From: a bacterium
GTDB lineage: Bacteria; Patescibacteriota; Minisyncoccia; Phycocordibacterales; VMGT01
Direction: 5' to 3'
Length of the DNA stretch: 32,313 nt
Assembly: GCA_030697645.1 (NCBI GenBank)
Contig: JAUYPI010000004.1
Location: 65,141-97,453 of the forward strand
The notes below the pieces were generated by a model, which ran no database searches, was not told where the DNA came from, and worked only from the letters and a program-made list of their open reading frames with translations. Both the position numbers and the translations under genes were made by a program. This document shows, one piece after another, positions 7,539 through 11,359 of the stretch; positions within the stretch are counted from its first letter, which is position 1; every line of letters begins with the position of its first letter.

Positions 7539-7616
7539 ATTTGTGCCCGCTGTGTGTCGCTTTCCTGCGCGTATGGCTTTAACCCCAACACTTCGCAGAC
7601 CTGCTGCGATGAGGTG

Positions 7617-7622
7617 TATAAT
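7617..7622 (+). promoter_or_regulatory. -10 box giving a probably leaderless mRNA for the ATP-grasp gene
   Basis: A perfect TATAAT (7617-7622) ends 6 nt before the ATG at 7629, so the transcription start would fall on the start codon. No Shine-Dalgarno sequence precedes that ATG. The same spacing is seen at lexA and at the SRAP remnant. Confidence 0.5.
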
Positions 7623-7628
7623 AAGTTA

Positions 7629-8573
7629 ATGGCATTCCTTAACATCGGCATTATCCGCGGCGGAGCGGGGAGCGGTTACGAAGAATCGCTGTGTTCGGGA
7701 GCTACGGTGTCTGCGGCGCTCGGCGAAGCGGCGGAGGAGCGAGAGTGGCAGGTGCACGACATCTTTATTGATCGGAATGGAGTGTGGCATCGCGGTGGTG
7801 TCGCGCGCAGTCCAGAGCGCTCTCTTCGGATGCTCGATGTTGCAGTAAACGCACTCCATGGCGAGGGCGGAGAAGACGGGGCGCTTGCGCGCACTCTGGA
7901 GAGTTTCGGCGTTGCGCATACCGGGACACTCTCGTCGAGCGCGTCAGCGCTTGCGGATCGTGGCCGCGCGCGAGCGCTTGCGCAGCAGTCGGGCGTGCGC
8001 ATTCCGCTCGCATACACGATCCGCGCAGGAGAGGAGGCTGATGCGCTCGGGGCGGCGCTCTTTCGCACTGTCTCACCTCCGGCTCTCGTTCGCGCCAAAG
8101 ACAGCGCGCTCGTGACGCCGGTTTTTGCGGGCGACGATGCGGCGCTTGCTATCGCACTCCGGCAAGTGCTGCTCTACAGTCCTGCGACGGCAGTACTCGT
8201 CGAAGAGCATATTCCCGGGCAGCGCCTGGCGCTCGGCGTGCTCGAGCGCTTCCGTGGCGAGTCGCTCTATGTGCTCCCGTTCGCTGAAACAGAGCCGGGT
8301 GGAGAAATAGTGTGCCCCGCGCGCATAAAACGCGCGGTGAAAGAAAAAATGGTCTCTGCCGCGCGTGGACTTTTTGCGGCTTTCGGATTGCGCCACTACG
8401 CGCTTTTTGAGTTTGCCGCGTCAGAGAATGACACATTTTTTTTAGATGTGCGAACACTCCCGGCGCTCCGCGAAAACGCTTGTTTCCAGCGCTCCCTCGC
8501 GAGCGTCGGCGCAACACTCGGCGAGTTCGCGGAACATATGATCTCACTTGCGCTCATGGAGAGCCACGCGTAG
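7629..8573 (+). CDS. D-alanine--D-alanine ligase-like ATP-grasp protein, degenerate active site
   Basis: This 314-aa protein has the layout of D-Ala-D-Ala ligase, which makes the dipeptide for peptidoglycan. The N-terminal domain has 'NIGIIRGGAGSGYEESLCSG' and 'NALHGEGGEDGALARTLESF' (canonical 'LHG..GEDG'), followed by 'AHTGT'. The ATP-grasp part contains 'RARALAQQSGVRIP', 'VEEHIPGQRLALGVL' and a C-terminal 'FFLDVRTLPAL'. In active ligases this last strand reads 'E-V-N-T-x-P-G', with Glu and Asn as Mg ligands; here they are Asp and Arg and the Gly is Ala. Either the metal site is altered or the protein has another substrate. The start chosen is the ATG at 7629, 6 nt after TATAAT (leaderless); an in-frame upstream extension has no support. 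Confidence 0.8.
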   Translation: MAFLNIGIIRGGAGSGYEESLCSGATVSAALGEAAEEREWQVHDIFIDRNGVWHRGGVARSPERSLRMLDVAVNALHGEGGEDGALARTLESFGVAHTGTLSSSASALADRGRARALAQQSGVRIPLAYTIRAGEEADALGAALFRTVSPPALVRAKDSALVTPVFAGDDAALAIALRQVLLYSPATAVLVEEHIPGQRLALGVLERFRGESLYVLPFAETEPGGEIVCPARIKRAVKEKMVSAARGLFAAFGLRHYALFEFAASENDTFFLDVRTLPALRENACFQRSLASVGATLGEFAEHMISLALMESHA

Positions 8574-8651
8574 GATGAGCACTCTGTCGGGCCATTAGCT
8601 TAGTGGTAGTGCACCCGCCTTGTCCCGATTTTGTTTAAATTTTAATCGCTT

Positions 8652-8918
8652 ATGTTTTACACTTATATTTTGAAATCCCAGAAATCGGGTATATATTATA
8701 TTGGCTACACGGGGAATCTTCGTAAACGTTTGAACGAACACAATACTGGACGGGGCAGGGCAACCAGGATAAATCGTCCGTGGGAACTCTTTTATTTTGA
8801 AGAGTTCCGTATCCATCGAGATGCTGTCCAACGAGAGAAACAACTTAAATCCTGGAAAAGTCGTAAGGCTTTGGAGCGATTAAAATTTAAAACAAAATCG
8901 AGGATCCTCGATAAATAA
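8652..8918 (+). CDS. GIY-YIG nuclease, small single-domain type
   Basis: This 88-aa protein is essentially one GIY-YIG nuclease domain of the UPF0213/YhbQ kind. It has 'YTYIL' (residues 3-7) as the GIY strand, 'YYIGYTGNLRKRLNEHNTG' (15-33) with YIG at 16-18, Arg26 and His30. 'VQREKQLKSWKSRKALE' supplies the likely metal-binding Glu62. These proteins cut DNA through a single Mg ion, and some family members act as homing endonucleases. The gene lies inside the interrupted tRNA-Ala and its stop codon is 4 bp before the intact tRNA-Ala. AT-rich leader and codon choice differ from the GC-richer neighbours. No Shine-Dalgarno sequence is seen. Homing into the tRNA anticodon loop is inference from position. 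Confidence 0.85.
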   Translation: MFYTYILKSQKSGIYYIGYTGNLRKRLNEHNTGRGRATRINRPWELFYFEEFRIHRDAVQREKQLKSWKSRKALERLKFKTKSRILDK

Positions 8919-8922
8919 TACC

Positions 8923-8995
8923 GGGCCGGTAGCTCAATTGGTAGAGCACCCGCCTTGCACGCGGGAGGTTGTGAGTTCGAGCCTCATCCGGTCCA
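8923..8995 (+). tRNA. tRNA-Ala(UGC), intact
   Basis: 73 nt. Acceptor GGGCCGG/CCGGTCC with the G3:U70 identity pair of alanine tRNA; D stem GCTC/GAGC; anticodon stem CCCGC/GCGGG with loop CTTGCAC, anticodon TGC; T arm GTGAG-TTCGAGC-CTCAT; discriminator A73. CCA is not encoded. It lies within the insert that interrupts another tRNA-Ala(UGC), 4 bp after the nuclease stop codon. Confidence 0.9.
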
Positions 8996-9094
8996 CTAAC
9001 GGTCCGGTATTATTTATCGGGACACGCGGGGTACGGGAGTTCGATTCTCCCTAGGTCCACAGCGTGTCGGTTTTGACCGAGGAGAGGAATAGCG

Positions 9095-9145
9095 AAAAAG
9101 TGAGGCGCCGCGGGTTGAATGAATCAACTCGCGGCGCACTTTTTA
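9095..9145. terminator. Bidirectional terminator between the tRNA locus and spoVR
   Basis: A long near-perfect hairpin: AAAAAGTG, then GCGCCGCG and GTTGA on the left, and TCAAC, CGCGGCGC, ACTTTTT on the right, loop ATGAA (interruptions of one base). A-tract left and T-tract right make it a rho-independent terminator in both directions: for the plus-strand tRNA transcript and for spoVR, whose TAA (9143-9145) overlaps it. Confidence 0.8.
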
Positions 9146-11359
9146 GAACGGCGCGCGAAACTTTATTGTCTCGAGCGTTTTTTCTTGGTAGCCTTGTGGC
9201 GTCCAGGAGTAGAGGACCTTCTCGCCGGTGAGCTCTTCAAGCTCGTCAGTGGTGGTCTCCTGCGTACTGTGCCAGTCAAACCACCACGGCCGCTCTTCGG
9301 GCTTTTTTGTCTTGATCGTCTCAAGATGGACTGATCGCCCACCCCACATCTTAAAGAGTCGCTCAAGAACATCGCGCATGAACATCCCGTTCTCCGACCA
9401 TGAGTCAAGATCTACGCCGGCATGCTCATGTCTGAGGTAGAGCTCACCGTTCTTGTTGTAGTTGCCGTTAACAACGGTGATGCGCGGCGCATAGAAGTTC
9501 GTGTAACGGAAGAGAAGCGAGCGCTTAATGCGCTCAAAGGAACGATTTTCAAAAAAGTAATGTTCCTGTTTCACTTCCGGATACTTACTCCAATCCCACA
9601 CGGGCTTGGCTTTATAGAGAAAGTAGTTGTTTTCGAGACAAAACTCCGGCGTGAAGAACTCGTCAATAATCATGAGATCGTCGTAGAGTTCGCACACCTC
9701 AAATACTTTCTCTCGGCCTTTCCCGACCGGGATCAGGCCGGGAACCATGCGCGAGAACGTGAACCAGTCCTCCGGGATAGGGAGCGCAGCATCTCGGCCC
9801 ACGGTGCCCTGCTCAAAACGTTCGCGGAAATTCCGCAGCGTCTCAAGCGCTTTGAGCTCACGGAGTATTTCCTCAAGCGTCCAGAGGTAGAGGTCGTCCC
9901 GTCCCGCTTCTTCATAGACGTCTCTGCGGACCTTCGAGAGCCGCAATTCTTGCATCGTGGCATCCTCGTCGGTACGCAACACTTCCCCGAGGCGTGCCGA
10001 TACGATGGCCTCAAACGGCAGCATCTCTTTGAAGCGCTGCTTTAGCGCTGTGTATTCCTGCTCGGCGTTTGCATAACGGATCCAGGCCGGAATGAGCTCG
10101 CGACTGGTGTAGAGGTTGCGGATGAAGAACTCTTTGGGGAAACCGAGCTCTCCTCGGACGAGCGCCGTTTTGAATGCGGAAAATTCCCGCCAGCGCTCGG
10201 CAAATGTCGTCATATTTCCACTCGCTTCTTCGAGCAGATTTTTGCATATGGCGAATTCGTCCCAACGGCTTTTCACACTCTCATACTCGCACTCCTCCCA
10301 GACTTTGCCATGCCGTCCGGTATCCCAGCGACGCCACACGTCACGCAGAAGCTCATAGAAAAATCGGTACGGATTCAAATCGCCGCGATGTCGGCGTTGG
10401 ACACCTGCGAGCTCCTCCGCGTACGTGAGCACTTCGGAGTCCTGTAAGACTCCATGCTCGCTCATGATGTCCTCCTCGACGAGCGACGCCCAGCCTTCAT
10501 GCAGGCCCTTGGTTCGCATCTGCGGCGCGAAATAGTATGCCTCGCGGCGTACAATCGCGATCAGCGCGCGTTCATACGGCTCAAGTGGCGCAGCGTACTC
10601 GAGGAATTCGAGGAGATCAAACATGGGCTCCGGCGGGATTTTGAGGCCTTTCTGAATGATGCGCTCAAGCTCCTTTCGTTCGGTAATCTTGGTGCGCTGC
10701 CACTCGATCCACTCGGGCGGGTTCAGCCACTCATCGAAAGATTCAGGGAGACCTTCCGGAACCTGTATTCGTTTCGGTACCAACTCTTCACGCCGCTCGA
10801 TCTCTTGCTCTGCATTAGAAAGCGGGCGCGCTCTCCTGCGCAGGTACGGAGCGTGGGCATCAATGCACCAGCGGAAAGAGAGCACCGTGTCGTAAAATTG
10901 TTTGACCTTCTCTTCGCCGTGCTCTTCGACGAACCGCTCAAAGAGCATCCTATGGTCCGCCATGACGTTGTGCATGTTGCGGTTGGTCGGAGAGAAGTAC
11001 GCGTTGCGCTTATAGAGGTCGACGTGACCCGTAACGTGTGCCATAACCGACTTGTTCGTTATGAGCGAGTTTGGACGCAACAAACATGCATGGACGACCG
11101 GCAGTGTGTTCACGACGATTTCCATCACGCGGCCGAGGCCATAGCGCGAACGTTTTTTGTAATGGATTGCCGTCTGGCCGTGCTCCCAGTGCGGGAGAAC
11201 GACCGGGAAGCCGTGCGTCGCCACTATTTCGCTCATTTCATCAAAGTCGACGATCGTATACACCGTTGGCGAGAGGTCGAGGCCGTAGCGGAGCGCTCGA
11301 CGCTCTATCTCATACTTCCAGAGCTTCAATTCTGTCGGAAATACATATTCTTCAATCAT
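9143..11359 (-). CDS. spoVR: SpoVR family protein
   Basis: 738 aa, longer than B. subtilis SpoVR and E. coli YcgB (about 470-510 residues). Family signatures include the N-terminal 'YEIERRALRYGLDLSPTVYTIVDFDEM' region (first 45 residues), 'FPVVLPHWEHG' and 'KRSRYGLGRVMEIVVNT'. 'MAHVTGHVDLYKRNAYFSPT' and 'ALIAIVRREAYYFAPQMRTK' follow, then 'HEGWASLVEEDIM' and the C-terminal 'PRITVVNGNYNKNGELYLRHEH'. SpoVR works with PrkA and the YeaH VWA protein in stress adaptation or spore-cortex formation; its biochemistry is unclear. Conserved His and Glu ('HEGWASLVEE') suggest a metal site, which is inference. ATG at 11359 follows GAGAGGGTG. The gene is third in the prkA-yeaH-spoVR order but is separated from yeaH by a strong terminator, so it may have its own promoter. 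Confidence 0.92.
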   Translation of the reverse strand: MIEEYVFPTELKLWKYEIERRALRYGLDLSPTVYTIVDFDEMSEIVATHGFPVVLPHWEHGQTAIHYKKRSRYGLGRVMEIVVNTLPVVHACLLRPNSLITNKSVMAHVTGHVDLYKRNAYFSPTNRNMHNVMADHRMLFERFVEEHGEEKVKQFYDTVLSFRWCIDAHAPYLRRRARPLSNAEQEIERREELVPKRIQVPEGLPESFDEWLNPPEWIEWQRTKITERKELERIIQKGLKIPPEPMFDLLEFLEYAAPLEPYERALIAIVRREAYYFAPQMRTKGLHEGWASLVEEDIMSEHGVLQDSEVLTYAEELAGVQRRHRGDLNPYRFFYELLRDVWRRWDTGRHGKVWEECEYESVKSRWDEFAICKNLLEEASGNMTTFAERWREFSAFKTALVRGELGFPKEFFIRNLYTSRELIPAWIRYANAEQEYTALKQRFKEMLPFEAIVSARLGEVLRTDEDATMQELRLSKVRRDVYEEAGRDDLYLWTLEEILRELKALETLRNFRERFEQGTVGRDAALPIPEDWFTFSRMVPGLIPVGKGREKVFEVCELYDDLMIIDEFFTPEFCLENNYFLYKAKPVWDWSKYPEVKQEHYFFENRSFERIKRSLLFRYTNFYAPRITVVNGNYNKNGELYLRHEHAGVDLDSWSENGMFMRDVLERLFKMWGGRSVHLETIKTKKPEERPWWFDWHSTQETTTDELEELTGEKVLYSWTPQGYQEKTLETIKFRAPF

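Follow-up and report, generated by a model that had tools for sequence, protein, structure and literature searches.

A two-hairpin GIY-YIG element of Patescibacteria that splits tRNA-Ala(UGC) and carries an intact tRNA-Ala(UGC)

Introns and inteins are the well-known means by which a homing gene can inhabit an essential gene. Carrying a replacement for the interrupted gene is a third way, known mainly from the ends of mitochondrial protein genes. Integrative elements that use tRNA genes as integrase att sites restore the 3' end of the tRNA, the DNA brought by the element making the insertion harmless, and they restore the same gene by 3'-end identity. In the element described here, by comparison, the gene is destroyed in its anticodon loop and a second, whole gene would replace it. 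REPINs and REP-associated transposases, like the present element, cause no target duplication.

The nearest precedent comes from fungal mitochondria, where mobile endonuclease ORFs (mORFs) replace gene ends (PMC3630166); those with replacement C-termini are described for atp6 of Allomyces and for atp6, atp9, cox2 and nad3 of Glomus (PMC3630166). As in our case, an essential gene houses a homing endonuclease gene and, with it, a divergent working substitute for the part that was interrupted, and the native remnant left behind resembles that of close relatives. Those targets are protein-gene ends in mitochondria and the nucleases are mostly LAGLIDADG, whereas the present element is bacterial, has a whole tRNA gene inside, has two-hairpin ends and occurs in ORF-less forms with cargo. 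GIY-YIG insertions matching neither group I nor group II introns have been reported in rRNA genes of CPR bacteria (PMC11270868); they too occupy sites atypical for homing, in or near stem-loops, but no replacement gene copy was reported and tRNA is not mentioned in the text. REPINs and their IS200/IS605-like REP-associated tyrosine transposases (PMC3116915, PMC2817692) share mobile paired short hairpins, ORF-less forms and a single enzyme gene, although that enzyme is of the HUH/Y1 type and there is neither tRNA cargo nor an anticodon-loop target. The double-hairpin elements of fungal and sponge mitochondrial DNA (PMC2800124) likewise consist of tandem hairpins, insert repeatedly and enter rRNA genes, but have no gene inside and no cargo tRNA. 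Engineered cleave-and-rescue and home-and-rescue drives (PMC7968924) also destroy an essential gene and carry a divergent working copy in the same element; unlike ours, they are CRISPR-based, operate in sexual animals and have a rescue recoded against cutting, which is not evident in the present element. We found no report in the open-access literature of bacterial elements carrying a replacement tRNA.

We analysed a window of 32,313 nt (the whole stretch of DNA under study), in which tRNA-Ala(UGC) is interrupted by 400 bp of inserted DNA (8623-9022) that lie between bases 35 and 36 of the anticodon. This is probably a two-hairpin element of Patescibacteria that inserted precisely into tRNA-Ala, whose cargo tRNA-Ala took over and which became indispensable. 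We lean slightly towards a broader reading as well, in which it is a natural bacterial home-and-rescue selfish element: a nuclease would direct it to an essential single-copy tRNA, a foreign tRNA would be supplied and the host would become dependent, within a wide family that has lineages for different tRNAs and essential protein-gene ends. Here such a replacement strategy seems to operate in bacteria, involving whole tRNAs of numerous target species.

The insert is a dimer of two hairpin units (Table 1). The general plan of the family is TCCCGAT-(loop 1)-TCGAGRATYCTCGA-(loop 2)-ATCGGRA, where loop 1 may hold a GIY-YIG gene and loop 2 may hold a tRNA; the palindrome TCGAGGATCCTCGA is shared by the two units, closing the first and opening the second. 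Unit 1 begins with TCCCGATTTTGTTTAAATTTTAATCGC, followed by the GIY-YIG gene and then the complementary arm, and the last codons of the gene are encoded by the palindrome. In unit 2, 24-nt arms (8909-8932 and 8996-9019) enclose the start and end of tRNA-Ala(UGC). The reversed form of the palindrome core occurred in none of the 397 genomes of the order. The same element ends were found at L054, L055, L190, L304, L325 and other loci. The initial annotation had described 7-bp inverted termini (TCCCGAT/ATCGGGA); these are present, and the description was incomplete, with a 22-25 bp pair around the ORF, the palindrome and a 24-bp pair at the tRNA to be added. Its inventory of one GIY-YIG gene and an intact tRNA-Ala(TGC) of the same specificity held, as did its figure of about 60 nt left over (59 nt after subtracting 267 and 74 nt). 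It had also judged a group I or II intron unlikely, and we agree: Rfam gave no intron match in the window, nor at a relaxed threshold over 8560-9100. With no ribozyme core and 59 nt outside ORF and tRNA, both intron types were rejected.

Table 1. Features of the interrupted tRNA-Ala gene and of the element inside it (positions in the window).
Feature	Position	Strand	Remarks
5' part of broken tRNA-Ala	8589-8622	+	Ends at anticodon base 35 (..CTTG); joined with 9023-9059 gives tRNA-Ala(TGC)
Whole mobile element	8623-9022	+	400 bp; two-hairpin dimer; ends TCCCGAT / ATCGGGA; no target duplication
Hairpin unit 1, 5' arm	8623-8650	+	Inverted repeats I2/I3 with 8875-8900; one long stem on folding
GIY-YIG nuclease gene	8652-8918	+	88 aa; loop of unit 1; PF01541 E 6.5e-19
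Hairpin unit 1, 3' arm	8875-8904	+	Inverted repeat
Central palindrome TCGAGGATCCTCGA	8898-8911	.	Where the two units meet; core found exactly in 10 of 397 genomes of the order
Hairpin unit 2, 5' arm	8909-8932	+	Inverted repeat I1, 92% complementary; extends into tRNA acceptor strand
Intact cargo tRNA-Ala(UGC)	8923-8996	+	Loop of unit 2; ARAGORN; Rfam 69.6 bits
Hairpin unit 2, 3' arm and terminal GGGA	8996-9022	+	Inverted repeat
3' part of broken tRNA-Ala	9023-9059	+	Starts at anticodon base 36

The flanks joined without the insert form tRNA-Ala(TGC) (ARAGORN) with a 5-bp anticodon stem and, as the initial annotation had stated, the loop CTTGCAC. Among 169 shifted junctions the exact junction alone yields this tRNA, and about 400 deletions of 400 nt at random places elsewhere in the window never produced a tRNA. 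The assumption that both halves come from one gene also stood: joined, they make a single alanine tRNA with a G3:U70 pair, the identity pair of alanyl-tRNA synthetase. An origin from two different tRNAs was considered, as the T-arm resembles that of Gly tRNAs, and rejected, as G3:U70 is kept; the same type of T-arm also occurs in genuine tRNA-Ala of the relatives L134, L322 and L324. Three mismatched pairs had been noted in the broken copy, and we located them by eye at 6-67, 7-66 and 12-23. Its T-arm is fully paired and of a different type from that of the cargo, so the broken copy did not arise by decay of a cargo duplicate. A search for a syntenic empty site via the neighbouring SpoVR gene (four relatives with SpoVR, 31-35% identity) found none, as the nearest relatives have other genes around the site. 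The neighbours of the locus encode a D-Ala-D-Ala ligase-like protein (7554-8573) and a SpoVR-like protein (9143-11359), the latter 31-35% identical to the SpoVR of the few relatives that have one.

Anticodon-loop insertions, which the initial annotation had proposed to seek in related genomes, were found with TCCCGA/TCGGRA ends at 15 loci in 14 genomes from 11 families, all at the same bond. Twelve loci are of the UGC type (the window, L190, L220, L304, L305, L310, L319, L321, L322, L323, L324 and L335) and three of the CGC type (L325, L336 and L338). Cargo and broken gene have matching anticodons in 15 of 15, and unit 2 carries the full tRNA-Ala at the same place. The nuclease gene is intact in six (the window, L220, L304, L321, L323 and L325), broken in L336 and L338, and absent from the other seven. 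For the window, L190, L304, L310 and L336, ARAGORN read the joined halves as a tRNA-Ala with the anticodon expected there; at the remaining loci the halves are decayed, hold further insertions or have lost the 3' part. The 3' half is decayed or missing in L305, L319, L322 and L338, where the cargo is intact, and in L304, L305 and L310 the cargo has another anticodon stem than the broken copy. Of 384 genomes of the class, 10 had the palindrome-plus-tRNA pattern (reversed control, 0); among 380 genomes drawn for the phylum sample, the window's own was the only one with it. As a description of anatomy, "break and replace" is well supported, with the anatomy, precise insertion, recurrence, matching anticodons, sole detected cargo and the ties between GIY-YIG lineage and tRNA (the last two given below) all read directly from the sequences.

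A separate observation concerns L305, L322 and L338, where the broken tRNA lacks its 3' part and similar DNA follows the cargo; in L322 the start of a serine-recombinase-like gene lies downstream of the cargo tRNA. Perhaps a larger element uses the tRNA end as an attachment site there.

We investigated whether the cargo is the sole tRNA-Ala(UGC) of its host, reading the tRNAs of the window's own genome from stretches of an assembly that is 96.5% complete. ARAGORN read 34 of the 40 tRNA matches, and the cargo is the only Ala(UGC); five further matches, at 84-87 nt, have the length of Leu or Ser tRNAs, and the last (L177) has, by eye, the anticodon loop TTTGGTA. The other alanine tRNAs of this genome are Ala(GGC) (15299) and Ala(CGC). 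The initial annotation had named further intact tRNA-Ala(UGC) genes as evidence that would count against it; none was detected in the same genome (ARAGORN, Rfam and pattern search) or in 11 others (pattern search), and one missed by the 96.5% complete assembly is unlikely. In 12 of 12 UGC-type genomes one pattern match was the cargo and the rest lacked the G before TTC, unlike a T-arm, so that by this pattern, which would overlook tRNAs with an unusual T-loop, the rescue copy is the sole working copy detected in all 12, as in a cleave-and-rescue design. GCA codons are read by tRNA-Ala(UGC) alone under the decoding rules, and therefore loss of the cargo should be lethal.

In the window, cargo and broken copy are 78% alike and their T-stems differ by compensated pairs, which would not be expected from the drift of a dead copy. 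In L304 the two are 70% alike, with different anticodon stems, and the broken copy is 96% like the native tRNAs of relatives. Both loci thus hold a divergent working cargo, and L304 a native-like remnant, as in replacement of the mORF type, and at both the cargo is too divergent for a recent duplicate of the broken copy. In L321 cargo and broken copy are nearly identical. The cargo can thus be foreign, and local copying or gene conversion also occurs. The anticodon arm of the cargo is the same as that of the target in the window, in a different body, and it is the same at several loci, leaving the cargo without visible protection from re-cutting; repeated insertions in some loci (L027) suggest that it is not always spared.

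The 88-aa protein of the window is a minimal GIY-YIG domain (PF01541, residues 1-71), and similar structures are those of UPF0213, 1ywl and 1zg2 (E 2e-6 and 1e-5). Against six relatives, codon position 2 is the best conserved and position 3 the worst, a sign of selection on the protein. This GIY-YIG gene is the sole gene of the element, which has no HUH (Y1) transposase of the REPIN or IS200/IS605 kind; as in a homing element, it encodes a nuclease of a homing family and the conserved target is interrupted at one bond, in 15 loci of which six have an intact nuclease gene. Its closest proteins, at 57-59% identity, are in Sungbacteria genomes (L054 and L055), and on the protein tree it lies outside the Ala clade, adjoining the gatB and uvrB elements. 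A search of plasmids for the element gave tRNA matches only, and no viral contig had a gene for a relative of the protein.

The L054 and L055 elements have the same ends and palindrome as the window and no tRNA. L054 lies at the start of gatB (downstream gene GatB_N, 1.5e-106), with the remnant MAEKYEPVIGLE upstream and a new start, MKLDPIIGLEIHAEL, that continues into the gene; L055 lies at the end of uvrB, where AKEMNFELAARIRDRIKMYKQQK closes the gene and, past the element, this end is present a second time in a divergent version. In both, the second version of the gene part lies immediately beyond the hairpin ends. One end each of gatB and uvrB appears to have been replaced by related elements, so replacement of the interrupted gene part would reach beyond tRNAs. 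We also found ORF-less dimers of 48-86 nt (TCCCGA..GAGGATCCTC..TCGGGA), small copies with paired hairpins as in REPINs, in the D-loops of tRNA-Ala and tRNA-Glu and elsewhere, and related elements in intergenic DNA and at coding genes, with loose ones that have no tRNA at neutral sites. At L041 (G011) a GIY-YIG gene lies within the first variable region of the 16S rRNA gene, in a hairpin. At L241 and L088 GIY-YIG genes lie between direct repeats of coding sequence (by eye the starts of a glycosyltransferase and an epimerase), possible further cases of duplicated or replaced gene ends.

A wider survey, drawing on 60 relatives and on named genomes, covered 161 distinct small GIY-YIG genes. An intact tRNA lay at most 300 bp away in 66 of the 161, with 88 tRNAs on the same strand and 3 on the other. 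More generally, small GIY-YIG genes are found next to both a broken and an intact version of the same tRNA (Ser, Leu, Thr, Gln and others). Direct repeats linked the upstream and downstream flanks at 49 of 159 loci, compared with 1.7% of mismatched pairs. Partial tRNA copies lay near 49 of 87 GIY-adjacent tRNAs and 25 of 143 others (Fisher 2e-9), and on both sides in 15 and 4 cases respectively, with neighbouring intact tRNAs masked and the control loci taken from tRNA-Ala and tRNA-Gly searches rather than from a random sample. At many non-Ala loci the two tRNA copies are nearly identical, consistent with local duplication. The tRNA species were strongly clustered on the protein tree (30 label changes v 43.0 when shuffled; none of 200 shuffles gave so low a count). 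Clades are pure for Leu, Thr and Ser, and that of Thr spans several phyla. This match between clade and tRNA suggests that the protein carries the target specificity.

Local duplication, in which insertion duplicates part or all of the target tRNA or strikes a tandem duplicate, insertions persist only if one good copy is left, and the intact copy is a by-product seen through survivor bias, we consider unlikely. The long perfect repeats beside many GIY-YIG genes (60 bp in L036), a 3' part that is 100% identical in L218 and copies that are 96% alike in L048 and nearly the same in L321 are what it would produce, but the copies in the window and L304 differ too far and in a compensated manner, the tRNA occupies the same place of unit 2 in 15 loci, and cargo and broken copy have different anticodon stems in L304, L305 and L310. 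Passive hitch-hiking, with two tRNA-Ala(UGC) genes of which one was hit and the other picked up, and with no selected drive or dependence, is quite improbable. It has to set the loose elements without tRNA at neutral sites, which are in its favour, against one bond and a matching anticodon in 15 loci and 11 families, a cargo within the element every time, and protein lineages that track tRNA species.

We regard intron-like splicing, by which the halves would give a working tRNA and the inner tRNA would be independent, as very improbable: although the anticodon loop is the usual position of tRNA introns and the element ends can pair, Rfam shows neither a group I nor a group II match, four loci that keep an intact cargo (L305, L319, L322 and L338) have a decayed or lost 3' half, and related elements lie in intergenic DNA and at coding genes. 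A chance resemblance or assembly artefact is less credible still, being ruled out by recurrence at 15 loci in 14 separate genomes, and no tRNA resulted from any of the roughly 400 random deletions.

Under the favoured reading, insertion with takeover by the cargo, the GIY-YIG protein most likely recognises the hairpin ends and a hairpin-shaped target. Insertions in the loops of tRNA and rRNA hairpins, together with the two-hairpin design, suggest that it may recognise folded single strands. The protein would make the cut that directs insertion, the element would be placed in the anticodon loop between bases 35 and 36 without duplication, and ORF-less forms may be moved by the protein in trans. 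The cargo tRNA would arrive together with the element, so that insertion would destroy the resident tRNA and be survivable by takeover; as the broken halves decayed the element would become hard to lose, and its loss would be lethal. We infer nuclease-driven homing and this lethality, and the correlation of GIY-YIG lineage with target offers what appears to be indirect support for cutting of the uninterrupted allele. Several points stand against the main reading: the nuclease gene is absent or broken in 9 of 15 loci, the protein of the window falls outside the Ala clade, the anticodon arm is often common to cargo and target, the copies in L321 are near-identical, no syntenic empty site was found and the genome is incomplete. 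If true, the reading would provide a natural counterpart of engineered rescue drives, explain the split and doubled tRNAs beside GIY-YIG genes in Patescibacteria and Bacteroidota, and offer a route for swapping an essential tRNA for a foreign one. The element also makes testable how an 88-residue nuclease locates one bond in one tRNA.

Three further observations were made beside these loci. At L072, L220, L239 and L243 the stop codon of the GIY-YIG gene lies inside the 5' part of the next intact tRNA (..CTAG, ..TTAG, ..ATAG), so that gene and tRNA overlap. From L099 to L125 (Bacteroidota, Pseudomonadota and Campylobacterota) small GIY-YIG genes are flanked by REP-like palindromes, CGTCATTCC..GGAATGACG, which GIY-YIG proteins may move. 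At L281, L283 and L294 (G012, G018 and G047) a different insert of ~130 nt, which had no Rfam match, begins in the D-arm of a broken tRNA-Ala copy, at most ~185 nt upstream of an intact tRNA-Ala(TGC). It is conserved and structured-looking (GTGAGG..GGGACCC..CCGCAAGGYCGGAAGC..GGTCGNGAAAATTTT) and could be an unknown RNA element; similar stretches are seemingly present in L213, L033, L043 and L261.
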